A stretch of DNA of 64,000 nucleotides from a virus (IMGVR_UViG_3300027848_000009:91888-155887); one strand, 5' to 3'; positions 20,589 through 64,000 are shown, numbered from the stretch's first letter. A program made the numbers and translations. Notes: a model not told the origin generated them from the letters alone.

Positions 20589-20594
20589 TGAATA

Positions 20595-22725: not shown

Positions 22726-22728
22726 CCT

Positions 22729-48064: not shown

Positions 48065-48128
48065 GATTCCTTTCCACCACCGTTGCATGTTGGACTGTCC
48101 TGAGGGGGGCCTGTGTGGCCGTCTGTGG

Positions 48129-48554: not shown

Positions 48555-48619
48555 GTTGAGAAGGTTTCAAACATAGTTTTCCTCAAATAATAGAGTCTTG
48601 TTGTTCTCAATGGTTTTCT

Positions 48620-48874
48620 ATGGATAGAAAAACGAAGACTAGTAGAACCCTTTTGGAGGGGGTCCGGGGGAACCTTTCGATTTGCTCAAAGGTTTTTTGG
48701 GCAAGGCTTCGCCGGCACTTTGCTGTTTGGCAAGTGTTCGTAAGGTTTTTGGTTGAACCGGTTCAGGTTGTGGCGGTTACTGTAGCGGTTGGGTGGTGGT
48801 TTGCAACCTACGTTGGTGAACTTTTTTTTATTTGTGTGGCGGGCTGGGCTGGTGTGGTAGTCTTGCGGGGCTGA
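48620..48874 (+). CDS. Possible small membrane protein in a 395-bp gap
   Basis: 84 residues. Two hydrophobic stretches (VVAVTVAVGWWFATYVGELFFICVAGWAGVVVL) follow a basic N-terminus. It has no good ribosome-binding site. On the minus strand a 38-residue frame (complement of 48828-48944, GTG after a GGTGG..GGAAAG motif) competes with it. The gap 48555-48949 otherwise shows nothing I recognise. Confidence 0.3.
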   Translation: MDRKTKTSRTLLEGVRGNLSICSKVFWARLRRHFAVWQVFVRFLVEPVQVVAVTVAVGWWFATYVGELFFICVAGWAGVVVLRG

Positions 48875-48949
48875 CGTGGTCGCTGTGGAGCGGGTACGTT
48901 CGGCCTGTAGGGTTGAGTTTGAGGGAAGTGTTTGCAGGTGTCACTTCTC

Positions 48950-49165
48950 TCAAACTCCCTTGCTTTCCACCACCGTTAGAGGGTTGAGTGGGGGTTGGGT
49001 GCCTTCCGGGCTTTCTCCGTGTCCTTGGTACCAGCCGATGCTGTATGCGATTTGTTCCCAGATGTCTCCGCTGAATTTGCGGGGCTCCCGTTGGCGTCCT
49101 GCTTCGTGGGCTGCAGGATATTCTGTGATGATCCATTGACGGTTGGAGAAGTCGATTGTGTCCAT
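48950..49165 (-). CDS. Small hypothetical protein
   Basis: 71 residues with SGDIWEQIAYSIGWYQGHGES in the middle, and Trp-rich. It starts one base after the upstream gene's stop. The 3' end contains the repeated ACGGTGGTGGAAAG sequence, which is used elsewhere as a ribosome-binding motif. No family recognised. Confidence 0.6.
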   Translation of the reverse strand: MDTIDFSNRQWIITEYPAAHEAGRQREPRKFSGDIWEQIAYSIGWYQGHGESPEGTQPPLNPLTVVESKGV

Positions 49166-49166
49166 T

Positions 49167-49640
49167 TCAGTTGAGGAGTGTTTCCCAGTTGTCTGGTTCT
49201 GGTGGTGTCATGGCGTAGAGCGTCTCGGCGAGTGATTTAAGGTAGTTTTGCCATTCGGTGACGAGGAGGTCGGGGTCTTTGTATTGTTCGACCTGGTTGT
49301 ACGACAGGTCGGTCGGGCTACAGAGCCCGAGCAGCATGTCGACAATTTTGTCTGATATGAGTTCGTCGGAGACGACCCCGAGTACGACTTCTGGGTTGGC
49401 GGACAGGAGGAGCATCGGTCCGAAGTCTCCGAGGACGTCGTACGGAAAATGTAGACATTTGACGATACGGGTTCCGACGTTGCCGGCGAACAGGAGTTCT
49501 TGGGCTTCGCGTCCTCGGCCTGCTTCGAAAAGCTCGGTTTTTATTAGTTTCGCGAAAGTTGGTGTTCGTTCTTCGGCGGTGAGCGACAGTATCCAAGAGG
49601 CCAGCTCTTCGGGTAGGCCCATATCAAAATTTTCGGTCAT
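49167..49640 (-). CDS. Hypothetical acidic helical protein
   Basis: 157 residues, Leu/Glu-rich and almost all helical (ELASWILSLTAEERTPTFAKLIKTELF ... IVDMLLGLCSP). The GGTGGTGGAAAGGA motif lies 8 bases before the ATG. No family recognised. Confidence 0.65.
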   Translation of the reverse strand: MTENFDMGLPEELASWILSLTAEERTPTFAKLIKTELFEAGRGREAQELLFAGNVGTRIVKCLHFPYDVLGDFGPMLLLSANPEVVLGVVSDELISDKIVDMLLGLCSPTDLSYNQVEQYKDPDLLVTEWQNYLKSLAETLYAMTPPEPDNWETLLN

Positions 49641-49730
49641 TGCATTTTCCTTTCCACCACCGTTAATGGTTGAGGGTAACTTTTTGTTTTAGTTTGATTG
49701 GTTTTGTTATTTCGTACTACTGTAGACCCC

Positions 49731-50153
49731 ATGGATAATAGAAACAGATTTGTCATGTACATTAGGGCTCTCGTCCAGTACAGAAGTCGAGAGGGCCACC
49801 CGGACGTCCCGGCTCTTCACATCGAGATTCTTGATGGTCAAGAGGTCCGTCTTGGTGCGTGGGTTGGCTATGTCCGGCAGCGTCGCCGTGCTGGGAAGCT
49901 GAGCGAGGAGCGTGTCGAGTCGCTGTCGTATGTGATTGGCTGGAAGTGGGGGCCATTGAAGCCGGGGCCTCGGAGTGATGGGGAGAGGAACTCTGAGATT
50001 GTCTCTGATCGTTCCGCTGGTTCGAGCTTGCAGCAGATCGCCGATAAGCATGGTTTGTCGAGGCAGAGGATCCACCAGATCGTCACGTCGAGGGAGTCCC
50101 CGTTGTGGGGATACAGTAAAGAGCTTGTCGAGATTGGTGACAGTCATGTCTGA
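49731..50153 (+). CDS. Helicase-associated-domain-like protein with sigma-type HTH
   Basis: 140 residues from the ATG at 49731. Residues ~10-60 (MYIRALVQYRSREGHPDVPALHIEILDGQEVRLGAWVGYVRQRRRAGKLSEERVESL) follow the pattern of the helicase-associated domain: a W..RL..Y....G...VP, then G.WV..QR...G.L...R...L. Residues ~85-120 (SDRSAGSSLQQIADKHGLSRQRIHQIV) are a sigma-70 region-4-like helix-turn-helix. Probably a DNA-binding regulator. TTGATT and TACTGT 18 bp apart lie just upstream. Confidence 0.65.
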   Translation: MDNRNRFVMYIRALVQYRSREGHPDVPALHIEILDGQEVRLGAWVGYVRQRRRAGKLSEERVESLSYVIGWKWGPLKPGPRSDGERNSEIVSDRSAGSSLQQIADKHGLSRQRIHQIVTSRESPLWGYSKELVEIGDSHV

Positions 50154-50355
50154 GCCTGTTCGCGTTTCTGCTGTTGTTGCCGGGTTCATGTTCACGGTTC
50201 TCTTGCACACTGCCATTTTCTTTTCCATCTCGAAGGCTCTCTCTAGGGCTGGGGTAGTCCCGGATCTTTCTTGGGGCCAGTCTGGTGTGATTGCTGTCGG
50301 GTACGTTGTGTCTAGGGTTTGGATGTCGTTTGTGACGACGAGAAGCGACGACTGA
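50146..50355 (+). CDS. Small membrane protein
   Basis: 69 residues, overlapping the previous gene by 8 bp. Hydrophobic stretches VSAVVAGFMFTVLLHTAIFF and GVIAVGYVVSRVWMSF. Function unknown. It converges with the VWA gene. Confidence 0.55.
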   Translation: MSEPVRVSAVVAGFMFTVLLHTAIFFSISKALSRAGVVPDLSWGQSGVIAVGYVVSRVWMSFVTTRSDD

Positions 50356-50390
50356 TCATGCGGGAGGTTGGTCCTCCCGCACGATGAGTG

Positions 50391-51830
50391 TCACTGGCCG
50401 GATGCGTAGGAGCGGAGTCTGGGTGGGAGGGTGGTTACCGGTTTCTGTCCGGTCGCCATCTTCTTGAATAGTTCAACGGCGTCGGTCATGTGTTCGGCGC
50501 AGAGGATGCGGTTCTTGAGAACGTATTTCGCGCATTGGCGATCTAGGGTCTCGTGGAAGCCGTCGCCGATGCCGGAGACTCCACCGTCGGAGACCCATAC
50601 GATGGGTTCGTTTCGGCGGCGATTTTTGATGGCCCATTGGAGTGCTGGGAGATCCACTCCGTTACCGGCGGCGATGTTGTCTAGCTCTCTATACATTTTG
50701 CCGTTTTGTGCGAGGATCCAAGCGTTGTCGCCGCCTTGACGGTTCCACGAGTATGCGAGGACGGTTGCTCCGGGCGCATGTTTGACGATTGTGTGGATCT
50801 GGTCACGGGTGAACGACATGGAGACTGAGCAGTCGAGTACAACAATTCCGCCTCGTGCTCGAACTCGACGATCGAAGATCCGATATTCGGGGTCTGTCAG
50901 GTAGCGGTTGACTCGACGTGGGTTTCGACCCATGTTTGTTGCGACACGCTTCTTTCCCATTGTCCCTGTCGAGATTACGTCTAGTTGGACTTTCCCGAAC
51001 TTCAGTTCGCCCCATGCTGGGATGGAGTCAGATGAGGATACTGTGTCAATCGTTTTTGCTTTGAGCAGTTCACCGAATTCTTCGGGGGTGATTGCTTTTG
51101 TCGTTTCTCCGGGTTTCGTTTCTCCGGAGCCTGCGGAGTCTTCGGAGTCTTCGGAGTCCGGTTTCGGTGGCGCCTGTCCGGCGATCCGATCGATCCACTC
51201 GGCGAGTGCTTCGGTGTAGCGGAAACCTAATGGGGCGAGCCCTGTGGTTTCGTCGACGTTGGTCGAGGCTAGTACGCTTCTCGTTTCCCAGCCACGTTGC
51301 TGTTGTTCGATTTTTTTGAAGTGTTGGATGGCACGCTTCTGGATTGATGCGAGGTGGGTTCCCCAGTCGCGACGACAACGGCGGACGCCTGTCAAATATT
51401 TCTTTGACGATGCTGTGCCAGCTGTGGCGATGGCGAACATGACGGCGGAGTGCCAGTCGCCGAGCATTGCGATGCGTTCGCCGTCGGCGGTCTCACCGTC
51501 GTCAGACAGATCGTTCATCACGTCGAAACCGGCTCGGCCGACAAGGAAGTTCACTCGAAGTTCTTCGCATGCGATTAGCGCTTCTTCCGATGCGATTTCT
51601 CTAGCGACCCATTTTTTGAACTCGGCGCCGGGAGAGATTTTGGCGTGCATCATTTCGTGTGCTCGAATGACACGAGACATCGCTGATTCGTCGCCGGGGG
51701 CCACGATCTTGCGATTGATGATGTCGGTGTGGGGTAGGCCACGTTTGGGGGCGCAGACGTCGGTCTGCCAGCGGCCATGCTCGACGTCTTTGCGAGTCAG
51801 GACTTCCGGTTCTGTTCCGATGACAGTCAT
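50391..51830 (-). CDS. Metallopeptidase-like/VWA protein, partner of MoxR ATPase
   Basis: 479 residues from the ATG at 51830. RAHEMMHAK gives a zincin HExxH motif (His58-Glu59-x2-His62), and VVLDCSVSMSF gives a DxSxS MIDAS (Asp333-x-Ser335-x-Ser337) of a von Willebrand A domain. A Pro/Asp/Glu/Ser/Gly linker lies at ~220-245. This order (peptidase-like N-terminus, VWA C-terminus) is that of the DUF2201/COG3864 group, which is usually encoded with a MoxR-type ATPase; here the MoxR gene is immediately upstream. The pair may remodel or process a target protein. The target is unknown. Confidence 0.78.
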   Translation of the reverse strand: MTVIGTEPEVLTRKDVEHGRWQTDVCAPKRGLPHTDIINRKIVAPGDESAMSRVIRAHEMMHAKISPGAEFKKWVAREIASEEALIACEELRVNFLVGRAGFDVMNDLSDDGETADGERIAMLGDWHSAVMFAIATAGTASSKKYLTGVRRCRRDWGTHLASIQKRAIQHFKKIEQQQRGWETRSVLASTNVDETTGLAPLGFRYTEALAEWIDRIAGQAPPKPDSEDSEDSAGSGETKPGETTKAITPEEFGELLKAKTIDTVSSSDSIPAWGELKFGKVQLDVISTGTMGKKRVATNMGRNPRRVNRYLTDPEYRIFDRRVRARGGIVVLDCSVSMSFTRDQIHTIVKHAPGATVLAYSWNRQGGDNAWILAQNGKMYRELDNIAAGNGVDLPALQWAIKNRRRNEPIVWVSDGGVSGIGDGFHETLDRQCAKYVLKNRILCAEHMTDAVELFKKMATGQKPVTTLPPRLRSYASGQ

Positions 51831-51831
51831 G

Positions 51832-52548
51832 TCAGATCGCCTCAATTCTCATGGCATCGAGGATGCCTACCGCACGATCCTTGAAAGTGATCTTTGCTGC
51901 GTCTTCGGCACCGAGCGACTTGCGTAGCTGGTCGAATGTTTTGAATGCTCGAAGCGAGACTCGACGTGGGCCAGCGTCTGCCATGTTGCGGGCAACCGTG
52001 CGCAGGTCTGCTGAGAGAGCGAGCAGTGCGTCAGGGTGCGGTTCGTTGATCCGTATCTGTACGGGGAACCTATCGACGAGTGCGACGGGAAGGTCTTCCA
52101 TGTCTTCAATGTTCGTTGTCATGACGGACGAGAAGCCCGGGCGAGGTCTATGGGTTCGGCTAGTTTCGGGGTGCGTCCATTCTGCGGACTCTGGTGAGTC
52201 GAGGATGGAGAGCAGGGTTGCGAATACGTCGCCTCCGGCTTTGTCGATTTCGTCGACGACGAGTCGTCCTCCGTTGAGTCCGTCGCCTTCCCATGCTTTG
52301 ACTCCGGATCCGAACATCCATTGGAAGCCGTTGGGTCCGGGGAGGAAGCCGCCTGTGACGTCGAAGTTGGTCATGTCTTCGGTGCAGACGAGACGGAATG
52401 CTCCGGCGGAGACGTTTCCGTGGTGGAGTCCTGCGTAGGTTTTGCCGGTTCCGGGAGGGCCGTAGAGCAGGATGCGGTCGATGCCGGAGTCGAGGCATTG
52501 CTGGAAGTGCTTCCAGCAGGTGGGGAGGTTTTCGGTGGCAGTAGTCAT
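51832..52548 (-). CDS. MoxR-type AAA+ ATPase
   Basis: 238 residues from the ATG at 52548. Walker A GPPGTGKT at residues 30-37, Walker B RLVVDEIDKAG near 95-105, sensor-1 region VMTTNIEDMEDLPVALVDRFPVQIRI with an arginine (DRF) near 155-170. It is short compared with the usual ~300 residues and has a reduced lid domain. MoxR ATPases act as chaperones that fold or activate proteins with VWA partners. The VWA gene follows with one base between. Confidence 0.8.
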   Translation of the reverse strand: MTTATENLPTCWKHFQQCLDSGIDRILLYGPPGTGKTYAGLHHGNVSAGAFRLVCTEDMTNFDVTGGFLPGPNGFQWMFGSGVKAWEGDGLNGGRLVVDEIDKAGGDVFATLLSILDSPESAEWTHPETSRTHRPRPGFSSVMTTNIEDMEDLPVALVDRFPVQIRINEPHPDALLALSADLRTVARNMADAGPRRVSLRAFKTFDQLRKSLGAEDAAKITFKDRAVGILDAMRIEAI

Positions 52549-52725
52549 GAGGGTTCTTTCAGTAGTAGTAACTAGGTGACATGTAGTAGTGAACACCTTA
52601 TTAGCAGGATTTCCAACCTGGTGACAGATTTTTTTTACGATTCCGTAAACCGGATCCTCCACAACCACAGTCAAGACCTTATTCGAGCAAACCACAACCC
52701 GTCTGTACAGATCTATCCAAAATAC

Positions 52726-52746
52726 TTATCCCCAGCCTGTGGACAA
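52726..52746. promoter_or_regulatory. DnaA box and near-box upstream of the MoxR region
   Basis: TGTGGACAA at 52738-52746 is a perfect actinobacterial DnaA box (TTGTCCACA on the minus strand); TTATCCCCA at 52726-52734 differs by one base. They lie in the 208-bp gap 52549-52756, which otherwise contains no gene I recognise. Unlike the right-end clusters this one has no start-proximal module. Confidence 0.6.
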
Positions 52747-52756
52747 CCCGGGACCC

Positions 52757-53251
52757 CTACACAACCCTATTCTGATCCTCAAACGCCTCATACAACCCAT
52801 TCTTCACCTTCTTGTACCGAGGAGCACCCTTCACATACTTCATCACCGAAGCATACGACAGCCCCGAGATCTCCACAAGATCATCAGGGGTGGCCTGCTC
52901 CAAAGGGTGATCGAACGCCCACTGATCCAGTTCCTTGTACTTGTCAGCAATCTTTGTTTTAGGTTCAAGCGGGACTCCGGTCTCCTCAGACGAGTCGCAG
53001 TACTTCCCAATCACATACTCACGAACTTCTGTCGGTATCCCATATTGCGAGAGAACACGATCAGCCGACCCGCTGCCATCCCACTTTTCGAGAACGTACA
53101 TTGCGTGCAGCGCCTTGTCGGCAAAATTTCTTCCTTCGTTCGGCATGGGGCCACCAAAGTTGACGTTTCCCCACTTTTCACGAAGAGCATCCCAGAGCGC
53201 CTGATGCTCTTCCTTGACTACCTCGATTGTAATGTTTTGCTTCATCCCCAT
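52757..53251 (-). CDS. Hypothetical protein with C-terminal HTH-like region
   Basis: 164 residues from the ATG at 53251 (AGGAG 8 bases upstream; a GTG-like longer frame is unlikely). Residues ~110-155 (LEQATPDDLVEISGLSYASVMKYVKGAPRYKKVKNGLYEAF) look like a helix-turn-helix with a wing. The N-terminal part is helical. No family recognised. Confidence 0.6.
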   Translation of the reverse strand: MGMKQNITIEVVKEEHQALWDALREKWGNVNFGGPMPNEGRNFADKALHAMYVLEKWDGSGSADRVLSQYGIPTEVREYVIGKYCDSSEETGVPLEPKTKIADKYKELDQWAFDHPLEQATPDDLVEISGLSYASVMKYVKGAPRYKKVKNGLYEAFEDQNRVV

Positions 53252-53417
53252 CCAATTTTCTCCTTTTTTATGACATCCCTGAACGGGAGTCAAGTTTTGG
53301 TGCTTCACAAGTGTGGACTTTATTAAGCTGTTTGACAACCAGCTGTCGGTTTTTATCCCAGAAACCATAAAACCGGACTGAGCGTGATAAACTGTAACCA
53401 GCACGGAGGTGCAACAC

Positions 53418-53582
53418 ATGCGTAAAATCGACGGTCAACCAAACGAGTTCGGAACCTTTGTTCCAGCAGAGAAGCCGACAGCCCCGCCCGTGCCGGCAGT
53501 TCTCGAAGAGCCTCAAGCCGAAGAAGCCGAAGGCGACGAAGATTCAGGCTGGACCAAAAAGGGCAAGCGCAAGTCCAAGTGA
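53418..53582 (+). CDS. Small charged hypothetical protein
   Basis: 54 residues, beginning MRKIDGQPNEFGTFVPAEKP and ending with Lys/Arg. Low-complexity Pro/Glu/Asp. GGAGG lies 7 bp before the ATG. It is divergent from the gene at 52757-53251; the 166-bp gap holds both promoters (a TGATAAACTGTAA element lies just upstream of GGAGG). Followed by a strong terminator. Confidence 0.65.
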   Translation: MRKIDGQPNEFGTFVPAEKPTAPPVPAVLEEPQAEEAEGDEDSGWTKKGKRKSK

Positions 53583-53687
53583 TTCCAGAAAAGGTTTCCT
53601 CCACCGTGATGCGTTGAAGACGTATCCGTGGAGCCCCCTTGCTACCGGGGGAGGCGAACCGGGCACCGTTTATCGGGGCTCTGCAAA

Positions 53688-53730
53688 ACCCCCGGAACCC
53701 CATAGTAGGGGTCGGGGGTCTTCGCCTTTT
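53688..53730 (+). terminator. Rho-independent terminator between convergent genes
   Basis: ACCCCCGGAACCCC (53688-53701) pairs with GGGGTCGGGGGT (53708-53719) around ATAGTA with small bulges, then CTTCGCCTTTT. It lies between the ends of the 53418 (+) and 53749 (-) genes. A second smaller CCCCC/GGGGG hairpin lies at about 53634-53652. Confidence 0.8.
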
Positions 53731-53748
53731 CCGGGCCATGCAGCCGCC

Positions 53749-53919
53749 CTAGTACGCTAGTGCTTCCCAAATAGCGTCACCGATAACGCTCCAGCCTGCC
53801 TCAAGCATTTCTTGGGCCACATACTCTCCCCAAGCGTTTTGGAGATCCCGATTGGCACCATCACGTCTCGCCCACGTTGCACATCTGCGCTTATTCGGGT
53901 CAACAGCAACGTGGGGCAA
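53749..53919 (-). CDS. Small hypothetical protein
   Basis: 56 residues from a TTG at 53919 that follows GGTGGAGGAAATC, the local ribosome-binding motif. An alternative GTG start six codons upstream would put the ribosome-binding motif inside the gene. Sequence has RRCATWARRDGANRDLQNAWGEYVAQEMLEAGW. No family recognised. Confidence 0.5.
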   Translation of the reverse strand: MPHVAVDPNKRRCATWARRDGANRDLQNAWGEYVAQEMLEAGWSVIGDAIWEALAY

Positions 53920-53949
53920 AGATTTCCTCCACCCCACGCTGTCAGGTTC

Positions 53950-54384
53950 TCACTTGACTTCTACACGGTCGATGATGGACCGAACCTCTTCCGAAATTGA
54001 GCGGTACATGCGTTCAGTCTCCGACGCGTCTTCAGCCCAGAAGGATTCGCTAGGGGCGATGGCCGGTGTTGCCGGATCGTTGGCGATCACGAGGTTTTTG
54101 CGTTCAACCCAGCGTGCTCCGTCGCCGCTGACTGGTGTGACAAGGAGGTCGAGGTGCCCGAATCTGGTTCGAGCACGTTGAATGGTTGTGCGGATGGTGA
54201 GGTCGCCGACCATAAAGTCAGCGCCAGCCCCGACGTATGCGTCGAGGTCAACCTTTCCGTCCGGCTTCCGAGCCACGAGGGTTCCTTTGGGTGATGGTGT
54301 GTCTACGATGTCCATGGTGTTTTGGTTATTGCTTCCTCCGGTTGGTACCGGGTAGTAGGTAGTGGGTAATGTATCTGTTGTCAT
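53950..54384 (-). CDS. Hypothetical protein
   Basis: 144 residues from the ATG at 54384. A TTG about 30 bases upstream lies nearer to the GGTGGAGGAAAGGG motif at about 54420-54433 and is a possible alternative. The middle has GADFMVGDLTIRTTIQRARTRFGHLDLLVTPV. No family recognised. Confidence 0.6.
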   Translation of the reverse strand: MTTDTLPTTYYPVPTGGSNNQNTMDIVDTPSPKGTLVARKPDGKVDLDAYVGAGADFMVGDLTIRTTIQRARTRFGHLDLLVTPVSGDGARWVERKNLVIANDPATPAIAPSESFWAEDASETERMYRSISEEVRSIIDRVEVK

Positions 54385-54476
54385 TTGACATCGCAACCTG
54401 CGAGCCAATATTTTTTCGACGACCCTTTCCTCCACCGTAATGGGTTGGAGGGGGTTGAGCGATTCTCGGGGCTCCC

Positions 54477-57040: not shown

Positions 57041-57123
57041 GACAACTTTCCTCACAATTATTTGCCTCGCACGTTGTGGTTGAGGCTAATAACCGGCAGA
57101 CTGTATCCATGACACAAGCAACG
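57041..57123 (+). promoter_or_regulatory. Start-associated module A (before 57109)
   Basis: GACAACTTTCCTCACAATTA at 57041, TTTGCCTCGC, GTTGTGGTTG, then CTAATAACCGGCAGACTGTA and the ATG of an MTQAT leader. Matches modules B-G in order and spacing. No perfect DnaA box here. Confidence 0.7.
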
Positions 57124-57642
57124 GCTACAATCACACCGACCGATACGTCAACACTTGTTGACGACGGCGACATTCTTGACATCACCGATTCTCGTAGGCT
57201 CGTCCTACACGTCAAGCATGACGAAGAGTCCTCGATCAACGACTATGAGGGGGATGGGCGAACACACCCGTGCGGCCGTTTGGGTCGCGCCAACCGCCCT
57301 GACGACTTCTCTGGTCGGGCACGCAAACTTCAGGTCTCTCGTTCGGAGTGGGTCTGGTGGGAGCCCTACGACGGACCAATTGGCTGGACTGACGCCAACG
57401 ATGTCTGGCAGGCCACCAAGTGGGACAACCTTCCCGAAGCTCAGCGCCAGATTCAGGTAGGGCGAGTGACTGACCTTATAGCCTTCGGCTTCCAACTGGT
57501 CGGCGTCGAACTACAGGAACGTGTTACAGACTCTCGTGGCGGCAGCCATTGGATCAGCGTAGACACAGAATGGGTCGGTGCAGTCGATGAGATCTACCCT
57601 GAGTTGGTCAGCGATCTGGCCGAGGAGGTCATGTCTTTGTGA
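57109..57642 (+). CDS. Hypothetical protein with MTQAT leader
   Basis: 177 residues from the ATG inside module A. N-terminal MTQATATITPTD is shared with four other genes downstream. Trp-rich middle (SEWVWWEPYDGPIGWTDANDVWQATKW), then a helical LPEAQRQIQVGRVTDLIAFGFQLVGVEL part. No family recognised. Confidence 0.62.
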   Translation: MTQATATITPTDTSTLVDDGDILDITDSRRLVLHVKHDEESSINDYEGDGRTHPCGRLGRANRPDDFSGRARKLQVSRSEWVWWEPYDGPIGWTDANDVWQATKWDNLPEAQRQIQVGRVTDLIAFGFQLVGVELQERVTDSRGGSHWISVDTEWVGAVDEIYPELVSDLAEEVMSL

Positions 57643-57821
57643 ACTACGCACGCCTGCACACTCAGCTACAACGTACCGCTGCCGTTCTGCTCCGCAGTCC
57701 CCCGTGCGATACGCATAGATACAACGAAGTGTCTGGTGCGGCCCGCATGTGTCTCGCAGCTAGCGAGGGTGATGCGATCGCAGGGTTCAACGCCACGAGA
57801 ATGATTCGTTCTCGATCGTGA
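57639..57821 (+). CDS. Small hypothetical protein
   Basis: 60 residues from a GTG overlapping the upstream TGA (GTGA). Helical ends and Ala/Arg-rich (SGAARMCLAASEGDAIAGFNATRM). Supported mainly by coupling. Confidence 0.45.
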   Translation: MNYARLHTQLQRTAAVLLRSPPCDTHRYNEVSGAARMCLAASEGDAIAGFNATRMIRSRS

Positions 57822-57889
57822 GTGCCGCAATCCGGTTGTAGCCCCGCCCTGCGGGTGGCATCAGCGGCCCCTTTCCGCCACCGTGTTCC

Positions 57890-57935
57890 TTTGCGTCTAT
57901 TGCGTTTATTGCGTTTATTGCGTTTATTGCGTTTG
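57890..57935 (+). repeat. Five tandem 9-bp units TTGCGTTTA/TTGCGTCTA
   Basis: A T-rich direct repeat directly after the CCTTTCCGCCACCGTG motif and before the DnaA boxes of module B. Similar single TTGCGTCTATT copies follow the same motif at 58808 and 60494. Confidence 0.9.
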
Positions 57936-57987
57936 CTGTGGTCTTGTTGGGTGGGTTTTGGGTGAACGTTGTTCGGGGCTGTTGGGC

Positions 57988-58100
57988 TGTGGATAACTTT
58001 GACTTTATCCCCACCCTGTGGATAACTTTCCCGATATTTCTTTGCCATCAGGTTGTGATTGTGTCTAATAACGGGCAGACTGTACCTATGACACAAGACA
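57988..58100 (+). promoter_or_regulatory. Module B: two DnaA boxes and start-associated element
   Basis: Perfect TGTGGATAA boxes at 57988-57996 and 58017-58025 and a one-mismatch TTATCCCCA at 58005-58013 are followed by TTTCCCGATATTTCTTTGCC, GGTTGTGATTG, CTAATAACGGGCAGACTGTA and the ATG at 58088. Confidence 0.75.
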
Positions 58101-58405
58101 CCGAAACAATCACGAACCCCGACGAGTACAACGGATGGGTCAATCGGGAGACGTGGGCGGCTGCGCTCCATCTCTCCAACGACGAGGGACTGTACCAGCA
58201 ATGCTTGGAGCTGGTCGCTGGCAAGCTGCGCTGGTCTGCCGGTGATGCCATCGAAGCGTTCGTGATGGAGCAGGTCGAGATGATCCTCTTCCCATACGAG
58301 CACGATGTGCCACCGACCGACCTGTGGCGCATGTTCATCTCAGATGTCGGCAGCATGTGGCGTGTCGATTGGCAAGCCGTAGCTGCCTCGTTCATGGAGG
58401 CGTGA
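58088..58405 (+). CDS. DUF7249-like protein
   Basis: 105 residues. NGWVNRETWAAALHLSNDEGLYQQCLELVAG is the signature of a family widespread in phages (NGW.NRETW.....SND). Ends with WRVDWQAVAASFMEA. Has the MTQDT variant of the shared leader. Function unknown. The next gene starts 2 bp downstream. Confidence 0.72.
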   Translation: MTQDTETITNPDEYNGWVNRETWAAALHLSNDEGLYQQCLELVAGKLRWSAGDAIEAFVMEQVEMILFPYEHDVPPTDLWRMFISDVGSMWRVDWQAVAASFMEA

Positions 58406-58407
58406 CA

Positions 58408-58743
58408 ATGGAAGCTGACTGGACTAGCGAACGAATCGCAACGACCCTCACAATGGCAGCCGATATACTCGATAGGGACGGGTGGCGACGAGGGAGCTTC
58501 AACACTCACCTTCGTGCGCCACACTGTCTCATCGGTGCGATCCGCACCACAAACGAGGATGAATGGGTGAGGAACTCGGCCATTGAAGCTATCCGAGCCG
58601 AACTCGGAAACAACACCGAACACACTGCCGAGCAGGCGTTGGTCCTGTGGAATGACAGCGCCAGTGACGGGTGCCGAGATGGTAGACATGCTAAGCAGGT
58701 ATTGCGTCGCACGGCGCGTAAACTGAACGCCGAAGCTGGCTGA
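58408..58743 (+). CDS. DUF6197-like protein
   Basis: 111 residues. TLTMAADILDRDGWRRGSFNTHLRAPHCLIGAIRTT followed by IRAELGNNTEHTAEQALVLWNDSAS matches the pattern I associate with DUF6197 (A...I...GW..G......G..C..GAI), common in actinobacteria and their phages. Function unknown. A strong terminator follows. Confidence 0.65.
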   Translation: MEADWTSERIATTLTMAADILDRDGWRRGSFNTHLRAPHCLIGAIRTTNEDEWVRNSAIEAIRAELGNNTEHTAEQALVLWNDSASDGCRDGRHAKQVLRRTARKLNAEAG

Positions 58744-58758
58744 CCGGGACTGACTACG

Positions 58759-58792
58759 GGGGCCGTCGGTTCCGCAACCGAACGGCCCCTTT
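58759..58792 (+). terminator. Rho-independent terminator
   Basis: GGGGCCGTCGGTT (58759-58771) and AACCGAACGGCCCC (58776-58789) form a 13-bp stem with one bulge and a 4-base loop, followed by TTTCCC. It overlaps the CCTTTCCnCCACCGT repeat. Confidence 0.8.
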
Positions 58793-58850
58793 CCCCCACC
58801 GTGTTCCTTTGCGTCTATTTCCTTCCCGCCTAGCCCCGCCGGACAGATTG

Positions 58851-59017
58851 CTGCAAGTTTTTTTGGGGGCTGGCGCCGCGGGTAGCCCTGTGGATAAGTC
58901 TAAAGTTGTCCACAGGTTGTGGATAACTATCTGTGGATAACTTTCCCGACAATTCTTTGCACGTAGGTTGTGATTGGCCCTAGTAACCGGCACACTGTAC
59001 CTATGACACAAGCAACC
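58851..59017 (+). promoter_or_regulatory. Module C: four DnaA boxes and start-associated element
   Basis: After GCAAGTTTTTTTGGGGGCTG there are four perfect boxes within 52 bp (58889-58897, 58906-58914, 58918-58926, 58932-58940; both TTGTCCACA and TTATCCACA forms, both orientations). Then TTTCCCGACAATTCTTTGCA, GGTTGTGATTG and CTAGTAACCGGCACACTGTA lead into the ATG at 59003. Confidence 0.78.
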
Positions 59018-59236
59018 ACCTACAACATTGCGGTCTGCACAGACTGCATTATGATGATCGCCAACGGCGAGGGGGGCAGCCATCTCGTTATGTCAATGAT
59101 GGCTGAGTGGCCCGACCACCTGCTCGGCTACGGCGGCGACCCTGACGATGAGGCCGATTTCTCTGGCACTCCCTGCGAGGGGTGCGGATCGCAACTGGGA
59201 GGGGCACGCCATGCGGCGCACGCTTTCGCACGGTGA
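59003..59236 (+). CDS. Small zinc-ribbon-like protein with MTQAT leader
   Basis: 77 residues. MTQATTYNIAVCTDCIMM and CEGCGSQLGG give two CxxC pairs. Gly/Asp-rich middle. The leader and first residues match 61188 (MTQATTYTATCVWC), suggesting gene duplication. Overlaps the next gene by 26 bp. Confidence 0.65.
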   Translation: MTQATTYNIAVCTDCIMMIANGEGGSHLVMSMMAEWPDHLLGYGGDPDDEADFSGTPCEGCGSQLGGARHAAHAFAR

Positions 59237-59435
59237 AGCTGTGACGGGCGGCGGCCTGTTCGTCGTGACCGGCACGATCACCGAGGTGAAGTCGGCGGCC
59301 GGGGCTCGCTTGGGGTTCGTGGTTGAACGACTGAACGGTGACTGGACTGTGATATCGCACGGCGCGTCTTGCGGGGGGACGTACACGACTCGTGATCGGG
59401 CTGTCGGTCAGCTTGCGACGTCTTGCGGTTATTGA
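59211..59435 (+). CDS. Small hypothetical protein
   Basis: 74 residues from the ATG at 59211, with GGGAGGGG upstream. Beta-rich (GLFVVTGTITEVKSAAGARLGFVVERLNGDWTVISHG). No family recognised. Confidence 0.55.
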   Translation: MRRTLSHGEAVTGGGLFVVTGTITEVKSAAGARLGFVVERLNGDWTVISHGASCGGTYTTRDRAVGQLATSCGY

Positions 59436-59517
59436 GGCGGGGGGCCTAGCCCCGGGGTGGGGGTGTTGGTTTGTGTTTGGTTTGGTTGTGTGTCGGGGCT
59501 GTCGTTGGGCTACGGCC

Positions 59518-59590
59518 TGTGGATAAGTATTCCGATATTTCTTTGCCATCAGGTTGTGATTGTGTCTAATAACGGGCACACTGTACTTAC
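59518..59590 (+). promoter_or_regulatory. Module D: one DnaA box and start-associated element
   Basis: TGTGGATAA at 59518-59526, then TATTCCGATATTTCTTTGCC, GGTTGTGATTG and CTAATAACGGGCACACTGTA. Here the element is followed by a 23-bp leader with CCAGGAG and an ATG at 59615, so start and element are separated. Confidence 0.72.
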
Positions 59591-59614
59591 AACTACCAAC
59601 CCAGGAGAAACCCA

Positions 59615-59809
59615 ATGAGCAATTTCGTTGTCGTCGCCCACCTACCGCTCGCCACGGCCGACACAGAGGCCAAGGACTTCCCTATCCTCCCCGCAGAGTG
59701 GTGCATCATGACGAGCAAGAAGTCCGCAGAGGCTAAGGCTCTCCGCTGGGCAACAGAGTATAGCCACGTAGCGGTCCACGAAATCGGTGAGCCGGTCGCT
59801 TTCGGATGA
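59615..59809 (+). CDS. Small hypothetical protein
   Basis: 64 residues with AGGAG upstream. Begins MSNFVVVAHLPLATADTEAKDFP and has SKKSAEAKALRWATEYSHVAVHE. No family recognised. Confidence 0.6.
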   Translation: MSNFVVVAHLPLATADTEAKDFPILPAEWCIMTSKKSAEAKALRWATEYSHVAVHEIGEPVAFG

Positions 59810-59871
59810 TCCTGAGAACGGCCGGGCACGCTCGCTCGGCCGTTCGATTGGACCATTGAAAGGAAACCAAC

Positions 59872-60093
59872 ATGGAAAAAATGATGACCAAGGCTCACTA
59901 CGAAGACATCGACATGGACGTGCCCGCCGACACACACTGTGTCTGGTATCACTCCGCCGGTTGTCTTCCAGACTCGGAGTACCCAGAGTTCTCCGGCGAC
60001 GAGGATGAATGCGAGGCGTGGATCCAAACGAACCACGACGATTACGACACTTCGGTGCTGTACGTTCTGTCCGTTTCTCCGGTAGATTACTGA
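59872..60093 (+). CDS. Small acidic hypothetical protein
   Basis: 73 residues, rich in Asp/Glu (SEYPEFSGDEDECEAWIQTNHDDYDTS), with three Cys, and preceded by GAAAGGA. No family recognised. Followed one bp later by the next start. Confidence 0.6.
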   Translation: MEKMMTKAHYEDIDMDVPADTHCVWYHSAGCLPDSEYPEFSGDEDECEAWIQTNHDDYDTSVLYVLSVSPVDY

Positions 60094-60094
60094 C

Positions 60095-60238
60095 ATGACG
60101 TCAGAACGTTGGACTCAGACCATTGAGGCGCACGGGACAGCCCCGCCGGGCCAGCAGGAGTTCTCAGGCGCACCCTGCCCAGACGGCGGTCTCGTGAGCC
60201 TTTACTGCGGAGGGTCGTATGGGAAGACTGTCTCGTGA
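60095..60238 (+). CDS. Very small hypothetical protein
   Basis: 47 residues beginning MTSERWTQTIEAHGTAPPGQ, Gly/Pro/Ser-rich with two Cys. Its stop overlaps the next GTG (GTGA). Confidence 0.45.
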   Translation: MTSERWTQTIEAHGTAPPGQQEFSGAPCPDGGLVSLYCGGSYGKTVS

Positions 60239-60432
60239 GTCTTTACTACTGCGAGTCGTGCGGACACACTATTCACAATACTAGAGCGGCGGGGACGGTG
60301 AGGCTGGCAGAGGTGTGGATCGCCGGGGCTGCCCTGACGTACTTTGCCATTGAGAACGAGAAGTACCGGTACCTCCACAAGACTTGTTATGAGATTGGGC
60401 GGCGTAAGGAGCATGAGGAGTCGCTTTTTTAG
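60235..60432 (+). CDS. Small zinc-finger-like protein
   Basis: 65 residues from a GTG overlapping the upstream stop. CESCGHTIHNT near the start, then a mid hydrophobic segment (VWIAGAALTYFAI) and YLHKTCYEIGRRKEHEE. The CxxC with a distal HKTC could bind zinc. No family recognised. Confidence 0.55.
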   Translation: MSLYYCESCGHTIHNTRAAGTVRLAEVWIAGAALTYFAIENEKYRYLHKTCYEIGRRKEHEESLF

Positions 60433-60446
60433 CCCCGCTGGTTGTC

Positions 60447-60474
60447 AACCGGTTGGCTGGCATTAGCCGGTTCC
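60447..60474 (+). terminator. Terminator-like hairpin
   Basis: AACC...GGCT (60447-60458) pairs with AGCCGGTT (60465-60472), with a four-base bulge, followed by CCTTTCC of the repeated motif. T-tract is weak. Confidence 0.5.
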
Positions 60475-60532
60475 TTTCCTCCACCGTGTTGGATTGCGTC
60501 TATTTCTTTTCTGTTAGCTGTGCTGGGCGGGT

Positions 60533-60692
60533 TTTTGCAAGTTTTGTGTCGGGGCTCCGCGCCGGGGTCGGGGGCCGTAGCCTGTGGATAAGTCAGAGTT
60601 GTCCACAGGTTTGTCCCCACCCTGTGGACAAGTATTCTGACAATTCTTTGCACGCAGGTTGTGATTGTGCCTAGTAACGGGCACACTGTACC
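60533..60692 (+). promoter_or_regulatory. Module E: three DnaA boxes and start-associated element
   Basis: GCAAGTTTTGTGTCGGGGCT, then perfect boxes at 60583-60591, 60599-60607 and 60623-60631 and a one-mismatch box at 60611-60619; then ATTCTGACAATTCTTTGCAC, GGTTGTGATTG and CTAGTAACGGGCACACTGTA. The gene start is about 27 bp further on. Confidence 0.78.
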
Positions 60693-60718
60693 CATACCCG
60701 CCAACAGAAAGAGGAATG

Positions 60719-60907
60719 ATGAAACTGTCACCTGACGGCGCAGGCTTCCTGCGTGGAAAGTGCGACGACTGCCGCTGCGTCCTGTCGATTTGGGCCCGCA
60801 GCGGACACGACATCGAGTGCCCCTGCGGCGCCCTGTACAATGGCTTCGGCCAACGTCTCGTGACCGCGTGGTCACGCTACGAGGAGGCGCTCGGTCTGGA
60901 CAACTGA
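60719..60907 (+). CDS. Small zinc-ribbon-like protein
   Basis: 62 residues from the second of two adjacent ATGs (60716, 60719; AGAGGA fits the second better). CDDCRCVLSIW and ECPCGALYNGFG give four ligands for a zinc ribbon. Common type in this cluster; function unknown. Sequence 60908-61081 after it shows no gene I can support. Confidence 0.62.
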   Translation: MKLSPDGAGFLRGKCDDCRCVLSIWARSGHDIECPCGALYNGFGQRLVTAWSRYEEALGLDN

Positions 60908-61045
60908 CGCACGGCGGAGTGGCCGCCCGGCGAGGGTGCGGCCCCTCTCCGGTGGCGCATGTGGGGCCCCGGGATTCGATGTCGAGTGCCGAGCGCGGCG
61001 CTGAGCCCCGCCGGGCGGCTAACGTTGGTTGGTGTTCTCCCCGTG

Positions 61046-61187
61046 CTGCAAGTTTTGTGTCGGGGCTGGCGACGGGGTGTCTGTGGATAAACCTGTGGAT
61101 AAGTCAGAGGTTATCCACAGGCAAATCTGTGGACAACTTTCCCGACAATTCGGAGGAAACGGCCCTAGTAACGGGCATACTGTACAC
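61046..61187 (+). promoter_or_regulatory. Module F: four DnaA boxes and shortened start-associated element
   Basis: GCAAGTTTTGTGTCGGGGCT, then perfect boxes at 61082-61090, 61094-61102, 61111-61119 and 61128-61136 in 55 bp. The GGTTGTGATTG part is missing: CCCGACAATTCGGAGGAAAC runs into CCTAGTAACGGGCATACTGT, and the ATG follows at 61188. Confidence 0.78.
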
Positions 61188-61382
61188 ATGACACAAGCAA
61201 CCACCTACACCGCCACCTGCGTATGGTGCGACACCCTGATCGAACAGCCCAACCGTGATATCGGTTTGATGTACTGGGCGCACCCTGATCTGTATGACGT
61301 GGACTGTGACGGCACCATGTGCCCTGAAGACGAAGACCACCCTGACTACGAGGATCACGTAGCAGAACCGGACCTGCAATGA
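61188..61382 (+). CDS. Small zinc-finger-like acidic protein with MTQAT leader
   Basis: 64 residues. MTQATTYTATCVWCDTL and VDCDGTMCPEDEDH give CxxC plus two further Cys. Closely similar start to 59003. Coupled to the next gene by ATGA. Confidence 0.62.
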   Translation: MTQATTYTATCVWCDTLIEQPNRDIGLMYWAHPDLYDVDCDGTMCPEDEDHPDYEDHVAEPDLQ

Positions 61383-61675
61383 GCGGCCCGCACGGCGACG
61401 ACGGCAGCCGCGAGCAGCACCTGCACGACCTAGCAGCGGCCCACATGGAGCATGAGGCTCCAGAGTTCGCGACCGCCAACGGCGACTACACGCTGGACAT
61501 CCCGCCGATCGTAGGAACCGTGCCAGCCCATCCGGCGAGCTGCGAGTGCAGCCCGTGCGCCGACCGTGCCGACTGGAAGCGTAAAGAAAATGCGGGGCCC
61601 GTCCGCGACTACGGTTCGGTTGCCGACTGGCAGCGAGAGACAGCCCGCGACGACATCGCAAACGGGTTCGGCTGA
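61379..61675 (+). CDS. Hypothetical protein with His/Cys pairs
   Basis: 98 residues, with REQHLHDLAAAHMEHE and CECSPCADRADWKRKE. Helical ends. Its TGA overlaps the next ATG. No family recognised. Confidence 0.6.
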   Translation: MSGPHGDDGSREQHLHDLAAAHMEHEAPEFATANGDYTLDIPPIVGTVPAHPASCECSPCADRADWKRKENAGPVRDYGSVADWQRETARDDIANGFG

Positions 61676-61824
61676 TGAACGATGCGACCGATGATCTGGA
61701 CATGCAGATCACGCAAGAAAAGCGTGCCGTCTTCGAGACGTTCAAGCTCGCGCAAGCACGAGTGGCACGTTGGGAGCCTGCGCCATGCCCACCCCGCCCT
61801 TACGCACGGAGAAGAGTCCTATGA
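61675..61824 (+). CDS. Very small hypothetical protein
   Basis: 49 residues beginning MNDATDDLDMQITQEKRAVF, with an amphipathic helix and an Arg/Pro-rich end. Supported by the TGATG coupling only. Confidence 0.45.
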   Translation: MNDATDDLDMQITQEKRAVFETFKLAQARVARWEPAPCPPRPYARRRVL

Positions 61825-61966
61825 TCGGTCGAACCCAACGAACATCAAGTTAACTTGACGCTGAAGACCGTGCGCGTCTTTAGCCCCGCATTTATAAGTT
61901 GTTTCGCCGCACACCGGGCACGGCCCCAGCATTGCTGTAAACTGTTAGTAACGGCAAGGAGCAGAG

Positions 61967-62110
61967 ATGGCCAAGCTAAACACGTTTACGGGACTCAGCG
62001 CCACGTTCGACAAACCGGCAATCAAACGCAAGGGTGTCCACTCGAAACGAGGGAAATCCAAGTCTCCCTCGTCGAAGAACTACAAGAAGGCGTACCGTGG
62101 CCAAGGGTGA
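61967..62110 (+). CDS. Small basic conserved phage protein
   Basis: 47 residues beginning MAKLNTFTGLSATFDKPAIK, with KRKGVHSKRG and ending SKNYKKAYRGQG. The KGVH.K...SKNYKK.YRGQG pattern is one I recall from small basic proteins of many actinophages. Could bind nucleic acid. AAGGAGCAG lies upstream. Confidence 0.65.
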   Translation: MAKLNTFTGLSATFDKPAIKRKGVHSKRGKSKSPSSKNYKKAYRGQG

Positions 62111-62231
62111 AGCTGAGAGCATCTCTGAGGACACCCCTCCAGCCCCGCCTGCCGGCATCAAGCAGCCTGTGCCGGTGTTTGTCAACCGGGATCTGGGTCA
62201 TCGCCCAAGATGTGCTGGTTGCCGCAACTGA
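62097..62231 (+). CDS. Possible small protein, Pro-rich with CxxC end
   Basis: 44 residues from a GTG that overlaps the previous gene by 14 bp (AAGAAGG upstream). Ends RPRCAGCRN. Coding potential is uncertain. Confidence 0.35.
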   Translation: MAKGEAESISEDTPPAPPAGIKQPVPVFVNRDLGHRPRCAGCRN

Positions 62232-62240
62232 ATGGCAGCC

Positions 62241-62312
62241 TGTGGACAACTTTCTTCACAATTATTTGCCCCGAAGGTTGTGATTGACCGTAGCAACCGG
62301 CAGACTGTACTC
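62241..62312 (+). promoter_or_regulatory. Module G: one DnaA box and start-associated element
   Basis: TGTGGACAA at 62241-62249, then CTTTCTTCACAATTATTTGCC, GGTTGTGATTG and CGTAGCAACCGGCAGACTGTA, running into the ATG at 62313 (MAQAT leader). Confidence 0.75.
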
Positions 62313-62498
62313 ATGGCACAAGCAACCGACAACGAGCTTCGCCCGCATGAATGCGACGACAACTATGACCTTTACGAGTGGGGGCACATTGACTTCCCTA
62401 ACGAGTACGTCAAAGCACCGTGCGGCATGACGATCCACGTTGATGATGCTGCTACCCACAACGGCGCTGAGCCGTGCGGCTACAACCGGTGGGTATGA
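62313..62498 (+). CDS. Small hypothetical protein with MAQAT leader
   Basis: 61 residues. MAQATDNELRPHECDD and APCGMTIHVDDAATHNGAEPCGYNRW give several Cys/His that could form a small metal site. Stop overlaps next ATG. Confidence 0.6.
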   Translation: MAQATDNELRPHECDDNYDLYEWGHIDFPNEYVKAPCGMTIHVDDAATHNGAEPCGYNRWV

Positions 62499-62689
62499 TG
62501 AGGGCTGATCGCATCCCAATGAAGTCCGGTGACGAAGTGGACGAGTTCCGCAAACTGCCGTGGTGGTTCATCACCAGCGGGCACAGCCGGGACTCGCAGC
62601 ACCGCAAGGCCCGCAAGGCAACGAAAACTGCACACAATCAGCGGGCACGCCGACTGGCGAAGCTCACGAACCGAAAGGACACACGATGA
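62495..62689 (+). CDS. Small basic hypothetical protein
   Basis: 64 residues starting with two Met. Helical, and basic in the second half (HRKARKATKTAHNQRARRLAKLTNRKD). Might bind nucleic acid. Coupled on both sides (ATGA). Confidence 0.55.
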   Translation: MMRADRIPMKSGDEVDEFRKLPWWFITSGHSRDSQHRKARKATKTAHNQRARRLAKLTNRKDTR

Positions 62690-63000
62690 CCACGACCACA
62701 CTCCGCAAGTGTTTCACCGGAAGCCCCGACTTGAAAGGTGACTGGATCGTCTCCATCTCTGACCACTCGGAATGGGGCGAATACAACATGGACGACTGGA
62801 CAGATATGGGACTCCTCCCATATTTCGGGCCGATCAGCAAATGTCCCGACATCCTCCTCGACCACGAATACAGCACAGGCTTCGGGTCGCCAGCACGTCC
62901 CTGCTACGCGGTCTGGACGACCAACTATGTCATCTCCTGCACCGAATACGACGGGTCCACCTCGTCCCACTGGGTGTCCCGCAATCCGCCGCATAGCTAA
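62686..63000 (+). CDS. Hypothetical protein
   Basis: 104 residues with SDHSEWGEYNMDDWTDMGLLPYFGP and CYAVWTTNYVISCTEYDG. Trp-rich beta-type sequence. Last plus-strand gene of the cluster, with the final repeat region after it. No family recognised. Confidence 0.6.
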   Translation: MTTTTLRKCFTGSPDLKGDWIVSISDHSEWGEYNMDDWTDMGLLPYFGPISKCPDILLDHEYSTGFGSPARPCYAVWTTNYVISCTEYDGSTSSHWVSRNPPHS

Positions 63001-63073
63001 CATCGGCTGGTCCCTTTCCGCCACCGTAATACCTTTCGTCTATTTCTTTTCTTTTAGACCTACTAAACAGGTT

Positions 63074-63170
63074 TTTGCAAGTTTTTTTCGGGGCTCTGTT
63101 TCAAAAAGTTATCCACAGGTTGTGGATAAAGTCAGAGTTATCCACAGGGTTGGGGATAACTTTCCTCATA
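63074..63170 (+). promoter_or_regulatory. Module H: three DnaA boxes, no start-associated element
   Basis: GCAAGTTTTTTTCGGGGCT, then perfect boxes at 63109-63117, 63121-63129 and 63138-63146 and a one-mismatch box at 63151-63159, then TTTCCTCATAATTATTTTCC and GGTTG. The motif then breaks off into minus-strand genes. It is at the convergence of the two gene sets. Confidence 0.75.
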
Positions 63171-63180
63171 ATTATTTTCC

Positions 63181-63288
63181 TCAGAGGTTGCCTTCCCCGA
63201 CTGTTTGGCGGGCGACGGATAGCGGGGCTTCGATCCGGTCGGCTAGTGCGAACCGCTGTGAGTGCGTCATGTCTGTTGGGTCGCTCAT
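63181..63288 (-). CDS. Very small hypothetical protein
   Basis: 35 residues (MSDPTDMTHSQRFALADRIE ...), coupled to the upstream zinc-ribbon gene by an overlapping ATGA. Amphipathic helix. No family recognised. Confidence 0.45.
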   Translation of the reverse strand: MSDPTDMTHSQRFALADRIEAPLSVARQTVGEGNL

Positions 63289-63452
63289 GCTGCAACCTTT
63301 CGGCGGTAGGTGCTGAGGTAGCAGGTGCGCGAGCACGACCGCTGCGTGTTCGCTTCGCTCTTGACGGTGAACAGCTCGCCGCAGTGGCAGCGCCGCTCGA
63401 TCATCCGTTGGTGGCGTGCTCGCGCGCCGCAGGTGTAACAGTCGTCGTTCAT
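63285..63452 (-). CDS. Small zinc-ribbon protein
   Basis: 55 residues: CYTCGARARH, CHCGELF and SCSRTC give four to six cysteines in a zinc-ribbon arrangement with a basic linker. Coupled to both neighbours by ATGA overlaps. Confidence 0.6.
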   Translation of the reverse strand: MNDDCYTCGARARHQRMIERRCHCGELFTVKSEANTQRSCSRTCYLSTYRRKVAA

Positions 63453-63949
63453 GCGAGCATCGATTCGAGTGCTTTGAGCGTGACGGCTTCGTCTACTGCG
63501 GGGGCGACATGGTTGGTGAGCTGCTCGAACATGTCGATGGCCCGTTGCGCCAGGTTGAGTCGTTGGTCTGGTGTGCTGGCGTTGGAGGCGTAGTTGGCGG
63601 CGTGGGCGGCGGCGTAGGTTGGATTATCAGCCCATGCCTCAGCAGCCAAGATCGCTGCATCAACCATCAGGTCAGCGTTTAAATGCTGCACCTGCCGCGC
63701 TTGGTCGGCAGCAATCTTCACCCAAATCACCCGACGCTCAAGATCGGTAAGGTCAAGTTTCCCGGTACCGACAGTGCGATGACCTAGAGCCAAGACAATC
63801 AGCGAGCAGGGAGCACACAACAGATCGTCGTCACGATGGTTGCAAATTGTGTCGTTGACACGTTGCACAATGCGGGTCAGCAGCGGATCAGAGCAGTCAG
63901 GGAAGTCGGTGATCTTCGTGTCACCGTTTTCCCAGCTGATTACGTTCAT
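63449..63949 (-). CDS. Hypothetical protein
   Basis: 166 residues. N-terminal part with TICNHRDDDLLCAPCSLIVLALGHR (Cys/His cluster, possible zinc site), then a long Ala-rich helical half (MVDAAILAAEAWADNPTYAAAHAANYASNAS). No family recognised. Coupled on both sides. Confidence 0.6.
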   Translation of the reverse strand: MNVISWENGDTKITDFPDCSDPLLTRIVQRVNDTICNHRDDDLLCAPCSLIVLALGHRTVGTGKLDLTDLERRVIWVKIAADQARQVQHLNADLMVDAAILAAEAWADNPTYAAAHAANYASNASTPDQRLNLAQRAIDMFEQLTNHVAPAVDEAVTLKALESMLA

Positions 63950-63999
63950 CGCGCATCCTTTGCCGCTACCGGATTCGTGAGATCCGACAGCGAGGCGGA
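63946..63999 (-). CDS. C-terminal end of an unrecognised gene (5' end outside window)
   Basis: The minus strand is open from the window edge to a TGA at 63946-63948 that overlaps the next ATG (ATGA). The 17 visible residues end SDLTNPVAAKDAR. Included because of the coupling pattern. Confidence 0.45.
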   Translation of the reverse strand, partial: SASLSDLTNPVAAKDAR

Positions 64000-64000
64000 G

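Follow-up and report, generated by a model that had tools for sequence, protein, structure and literature searches.

Repeated intergenic modules joining DnaA boxes to a promoter-like core in a phage of a likely actinobacterial host

Perfect DnaA boxes are clustered between small phage genes

A 64-kb stretch of a phage record (64,000 nucleotides, IMGVR_UViG_3300027848_000009:91888-155887; hereafter the window, to which coordinates refer unless stated otherwise) was analyzed. Near its right end, modules that combine perfect copies of the DnaA box TTRTCCACA with a promoter-like core recur between small genes. The reading that we prefer, with a probability of about 0.4, is that the box arrays would be binding sites for host DnaA, acting as sink and sensor and fused to a duplicated promoter cassette.

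The window contains 19 perfect boxes, 18 at 57988-63146 and one at 52738; shuffled versions contained 1.12 on average and 4 at most (100 shuffles). The initial annotation had reported 18 boxes in seven intergenic regions and another at 52738, and all were recovered at those positions. Nor are the boxes equally frequent elsewhere, as the whole 155,887-bp record holds 20, the sole additional one lying at record position 9010 within an open reading frame (ORF). All 18 boxes of the seven intergenic clusters (18/18) fall outside the ORFs used, in a region that is ~69% coding, and the densest packing in the window is four perfect boxes per ~55 bp. The commonest 9-mer of the box region, TGTGGATAA, has zero copies in the remaining window. 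Several close consensus 9-mers, far above chance, define a DnaA-box cluster, and this is what is found here. Because the modules are partly duplicates of each other, the 18 boxes cannot all be counted as independent, and the chance figure exaggerates the statistics, not the reality of the feature. The box at 52738 belongs to an isolated pair (52726-52746, no strand assigned) of TTATCCCCA (plus) and TTGTCCACA (minus) in a 61-bp gap between two minus-strand genes.

The boxes are identical to TTATCCACA and TTGTCCACA, high-affinity sequences from the literature of which the second is used by M. tuberculosis and Streptomyces (PMC4285127), and their variation is almost confined to the R position. 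A one-mismatch scan revealed three further boxes within the arrays (58005, 60611 and 63151), all of them TTRTCCCCA, which includes the weak DnaA W-box known from Caulobacter, TCCCCA (PMC4285127). Across five minus/plus pairs taken from separate modules, identity was 94% for the boxes and 37% for the spacers. Conservation of boxes but not of spacers, together with the fixed spacing of boxes and core described below, supports the proposal that these are DnaA-box modules, several of them upstream of genes.

Organization of the modules

Fuller modules begin at the end of the preceding gene with TAGCCCCG or a GC-rich hairpin, together with a CTTTCCNCCACCGT element. This terminator-like part precedes GCAAGTTTT..TCGGGGCT, followed by one to four perfect boxes, for which the prevailing arrangement is minus-17-plus-12-minus. 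The core (~65 bp) then runs from the last box through TTTCCCGACAATTCTTTGC, GGTTGTGATTG, TARYAACSGGCANACTGTA and three bases to an A (ACTGTA-NNN-A). In modules with a core the last box is on the minus strand without exception. In modules m58, m59, m59b, m60 and m62 this box lies 63-64 bp from the end of ACTGTA; m61 lacks 11 bp, about one helical turn, which shortens the distance to 52 bp. The upstream and downstream motifs that the initial annotation had described as shared are indeed present, but the copy at 57041-57108 has no perfect box and that at 63109-63159 has a truncated core.

The modules recur eight times, all on the plus strand. The first, m57 (57041-57108), is a core whose ACTGTA ends at 57105, without an intact DnaA box, before an ATG at 57109 (MTQAT...). 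Module m58 (57850-58087) comprises a CTTTCCGCCACCGT element, TTCGGGGCT, boxes at 57988 (minus), 58005 (plus, TTATCCCCA) and 58017 (minus), and a core ending at 58084 before the ATG at 58088; a tandem 10-bp repeat, TTGCGTTTAT, is present in about four copies at 57890-57935, just upstream of m58. In m59 (58752-59002) a GC-rich hairpin, CTTTCCCCCACCGT and GCAAGTTTTTTTGGGGGCT are followed by boxes at 58889 (minus), 58906 (plus), 58918 (minus) and 58932 (minus) and a core ending at 58999, with the ATG at 59003. Module m59b (59440-59614) has a hairpin, TCGGGGCT, a single box at 59518 (minus), a core end at 59585 and an AGGAG leader to an ATG at 59615. The most elaborate upstream part is that of m60 (60430-60718), with TAGCCCCG, a hairpin, CTTTCCTCCACCGT and GCAAGTTTTGTGTCGGGGCT, then boxes at 60583 (minus), 60599 (plus), 60611 (plus, TTGTCCCCA) and 60623 (minus), a core end at 60690 and an AGAGGA leader to the ATG at 60719. 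Module m61 (61000-61187) contains GCAAGTTTTGTGTCGGGGCT, boxes at 61082 (minus), 61094 (minus), 61111 (plus) and 61128 (minus), and the shorter core, ending at 61184 before the ATG at 61188 (MTQAT...); m62 (62241-62312) consists of a single box at 62241 (minus) and a core ending at 62309, with the ATG at 62313 (MAQAT...). The last module, m63 (63013-63185), has CTTTCCGCCACCGT, a 65-bp stretch of up to 70% AT at 63026-63090, GCAAGTTTTTTTCGGGGCT and boxes at 63109 (plus), 63121 (minus), 63138 (plus) and 63151 (minus, TTATCCCCA), and its core is truncated at ~63185. Stretches comparable to the AT-rich one occur elsewhere in the window. Siphophage-like sequence resumes at ~63191, abutting the truncated core, so the placement of m63 between convergent genes is unreliable. 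On the minus strand at 48073-54428, ACGGTGGNGGAAAGG occurs at five places, at least two of them directly before a start codon, as a start-associated sequence; its reverse complement is CTTTCCNCCACCGT, which recurs in the box modules.

All seven cores (7/7) have an A as the fourth base after ACTGTA. For m57, m58, m59, m61 and m62 this A belongs to the ATG itself, no Shine-Dalgarno site precedes it, and the encoded proteins start with MTQAT, MTQDT or MAQAT. For m59b and m60 it opens a leader carrying AGGAG or AGAGGA ahead of a later ATG. This conserved pattern suggests that the A is the transcription start and that five of the genes are leaderless. Leaderless genes are common in actinobacteria.

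Genes behind the modules are recent traffic, exchanged with siphophages. The DUF7249-family gene behind m58 (58088-58405, plus strand) matches over 58107-58393, with 96% DNA identity, a siphophage gene without such a module, located in the left part of the same record. Matches to siphophage contigs, at roughly 71-93%, also cover 61470-61828, 62373-62478 and 63441-64000. Neither the promoter core nor box clusters were found in the matching siphophage stretches, and the module may thus act as a local expression cassette that receives genes.

Box clusters in other viral genomes

No similar DNA was found in sequenced phages. A search for the modules in related genomes, proposed in the initial annotation, was partly successful: box clusters and a box-plus-CTTTCCCGAYA element were found in two distant relatives, G047 (129 kb) and G049 (145 kb), the only viral contigs with this element, but the exact pattern of the promoter core had zero matches in viral contigs or bacterial genomes. 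Both relatives were picked up by box pattern alone. Their 32 and 33 boxes form dispersed clusters, of which the largest hold 14 perfect boxes per 340 bp in G047 and 11 in ~340 bp in G049. Identity of G047 to the phage is 79% for ribonucleotide reductase and 41% for the tail sheath. By a simple gene call the G047 clusters are intergenic, some of them between convergent genes. Several end in TGTGGATAACTTT, as they do in the phage; CTTT-flanked boxes are the last of their clusters in G047 and likewise in four phage modules; and a 20-bp stretch of G047, CTGTGGATAACTTTCCCGAT, matches m58 exactly. G047 and G049 are ~92% alike and boxes turn over between them, but they are too close for this comparison to say much about box conservation. 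A slightly looser version of the element was matched by four bacterial contigs, none of which had more than two boxes in the stretch examined, so that no host origin was identified.

Dispersed box clusters are also seen in other viral contigs, G041 and G042, and the trait may therefore have more than one origin; since contigs with clusters were chosen by box patterns, they give no frequency estimate. G041, from another viral group (L361-L362; its record 22782-27672), has 30 boxes in seven clusters. Among these are perfect convergent pairs that form part of longer stems, the outer arms of which differ, as well as an origin-like array of 13 boxes with TTCATTT-type repeats behind it. G042 (L363-L364; its record 18900-20900) is a 120-kb contig with 19 perfect boxes within 2 kb and is related to the siphophage part of the phage record (terminase 43%).

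Replication genes

Bac_DnaA_C had no match in the phage record, G047, G049, G005 (a 137-kb relative with sheath identity of 73%, collinear with the record from 42 to 148 kb), G041 or G042, although divergent proteins can escape such a search; a phage-encoded DnaA was rejected on this basis. DnaB_C was not found in the records tested, with the same reservation. In G047, genes for a primase-helicase, ThyX and an SNF2 helicase are present. In G005 a primase-helicase is located at 109-111 kb, an SSB-like match at 112 kb and an SNF2 helicase at 118-119 kb. By synteny the accessory region of the phage adjoins predicted replication genes, and the SSB, primase-helicase and SNF2 helicase genes would sit in the missing stretch past the right end. 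GC skew was rejected as uninformative about an origin: it shows no clear switch and is dominated by gene orientation, in a record that is probably composite.

Comparison with known systems

The E. coli datA locus titrates DnaA via two consensus boxes and four with one misfit (PMC5835720). The phage arrays resemble it as compact clusters of consensus and near-consensus boxes away from an origin (PMC5835720), single modules having up to four consensus boxes to the two of datA, and as high-affinity clusters outside the context of an initiator gene; unlike datA, they are multi-copy and joined to a promoter-like cassette. With oriC of Streptomyces and Mycobacterium they share the same high-affinity boxes in both orientations within one intergenic region (PMC4285127), up to four perfect boxes here and 14 in G047. 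Unlike oriC, the phage groups of 1-4 boxes are spread over 5 kb between small genes, and the window has no clear unwinding element or skew switch.

Start-associated sequences (SAS) and ESAS of cluster K mycobacteriophages are likewise repeated intergenic elements near start codons of small genes, partly with a longer upstream repeat (PMC3203893). Their sequence is unrelated, SAS is proposed to function in translation initiation (PMC3203893), and they are not known to contain DnaA boxes. The 13-bp SAS GGGATAGGAGCCC, an element near start codons, gave one two-mismatch match, equal to chance. The stoperators of mycobacteriophage L5 are also many short asymmetric sites dispersed in intergenic DNA, but they are bound by the phage repressor (PMC3203893). 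Their consensus is not enriched here, the 13-bp GGTGGMTGTCAAG giving three two-mismatch matches, equal to chance. For T4-type phages, Arbiol et al. in 2010 (cited in PMC4177764) reportedly described mobile regulatory cassettes, repeated terminator-promoter units between small exchangeable genes; these are not known to contain DnaA boxes. Repeated cassettes and exchanged genes are both present here, but the phage family and the promoter are different, and the promoter at the cores is putative, the sigma-70 scan having given no match. Individually, all three elements are known, namely clusters of DnaA boxes, regulatory cassettes of phages and dispersed phage sites. The open-access papers searched contained no repeated cassette that unites them and no report of DnaA-box cassettes in phages, which is no proof of absence.

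Interpretation of the arrays

If the arrays bind host DnaA, the protein would be drawn onto an early or accessory region of the phage, beside replication genes, and multiplying phage copies with ~20 strong sites each would compete with the host origin for it. As the arrays are fused to a duplicated terminator-plus-promoter cassette with a putatively leaderless start, the small genes downstream would respond to DnaA occupancy. Clusters between convergent genes in G047 fit a binding role untied to promoters, and the presence of site clusters in distant uncultured relatives suggests capture or sensing of the host initiator by these phages. We rank capture and sensing first because no other role accounts at once for clusters that have promoters and clusters that lack them, for modules with a single box and for array-free relatives. 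Several observations weigh against it. A scan with consensus sigma-70 elements found no promoter at the cores above chance, and recent module duplication accounts for part of the apparent box constraint. G005 has no intergenic arrays and only three perfect boxes, two of them in the matching region in coding-like sequence, and four cultured relatives sampled hold 0, 0, 1 and 1 box, so the arrays are dispensable; G005 does carry TAGCCCCG and CCACCGT elements. The actinobacterial host, too, is a likely assignment, drawn from sheath relatives.

That the region is part of a DnaA-dependent origin is possible but doubtful. Host DnaA would open a main array, possibly past the contig end, phage primase-helicase and host polymerase would take over, and the dispersed arrays would be auxiliary parts or copies. 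DNA polymerases A, B and III-alpha were not detected in the phage or five relatives, although divergent proteins can escape detection, so host replication proteins are probably used; the cultured relative Cantare, which encodes DnaB, primase, DnaE and RecA, has zero perfect boxes. This relation between own replication genes and boxes is a correlation from few genomes with G005 as an exception, and because G005 has neither the searched polymerase families nor the arrays, the latter are not needed for replication in the lineage. The large arrays of G047 and G049 (14 and 11 perfect boxes) lie a few kb from the SNF2 helicase gene and another array lies within ~8 kb of the primase-helicase gene; since synteny with G005 puts such genes past the right end of the phage contig, a main origin could be located immediately beyond the window. 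Within it, the AT-rich 63026-63090 adjoins the m63 boxes, but no array exceeds four perfect boxes and the arrays are scattered over 5 kb with genes between them. The preference of the initial annotation for a regulatory or titration role over an origin is only half supported, given the clusters between convergent genes and the origin-like 14-box array of G047 and the replication genes expected past the contig end, and the GC-skew analysis that it suggested does not settle the origin question.

Primary function of the modules as DnaA-controlled promoters of accessory genes appears unlikely. From the last box, at about -67 relative to the putative start, DnaA would activate or repress the core and tune expression to host DnaA-ATP. 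Such control would agree with the box of 6/7 cores, whose orientation is always the same and whose distance is constant or differs by one turn, with the invariant A described above and with the exchanged siphophage genes among those behind cores. However, duplication alone may explain the fixed spacing, m57 retains a core without a box, and both the convergent-gene clusters of G047 and the missing sigma-70 match speak against it. It is very improbable that the 9-mers merely resemble DnaA boxes and are sites of a phage regulator or hairpin formers. Convergent pairs do make 21-bp near-palindromes such as TTATCCACAGGTTGTGGATAA, in contig L321 such pairs are embedded in longer perfect stems whose outer arms differ, and the decayed box of m57 forms a terminator-like hairpin; but single boxes, direct repeats and divergent pairs occur too, which indicates that the unit is the asymmetric 9-mer, and only coincidence would then explain why it fits the published consensus exactly, down to the A/G choice and the TCCCCA variant.

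DnaA availability sets the timing of bacterial replication start. DnaA capture by the arrays would provide a case of initiator capture in nature, with strong sites tied to exchangeable genes in an early region, would make titration testable with a cloned array of ~50 bp, and would explain immediate regulated expression of newly acquired phage genes. A wider proposal, which we consider rather unlikely, is that an actinobacterial phage lineage builds DnaA arrays into portable terminator-promoter cassettes, wiring captured genes to the host initiation state while draining DnaA from the host origin.

The phage record and its host

The myovirus part of the record encodes a tail sheath, baseplate wedge, major capsid protein and ribonucleotide reductase. 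The nearest cultured sheath relatives (32-37% identity) infect Gordonia, Brevibacterium and Arthrobacter, making an actinobacterial host likely. Siphophage sequence makes up the initial 42 kb of the record and is 99.98% identical over 8.9 kb to contig L234, so that the record is probably a composite assembly of a siphophage and a myovirus; the array is more than 100 kb away and thus unaffected. GC content is ~0.61 in the siphophage part (record 1-42000, L005-L007) and ~0.52 in the myovirus part (42000-155000), and record positions 634-1107 and 41755-42228 are 98.5% identical to each other. At the right end, 63191-64000 matches siphophage contigs in pieces (71-93%), possibly a second join or a real mosaic, and a protein search for contigs running past this end returned only siphophage-type contigs (50-92% protein identity). 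The siphophage part has a dispersed palindromic repeat of its own, GGGTTGACGACCCGACTCGGGTCGGATA, at record positions 2440, 10097, 32261 and 39804, a different element with possibly the same role. Window positions 22015-27063 and 32526-34010 encode three 2OG-Fe(II) oxygenases, TauD-family and DUF6065 proteins and a tryptophan-halogenase-like gene, largely conserved in G005 and G009.

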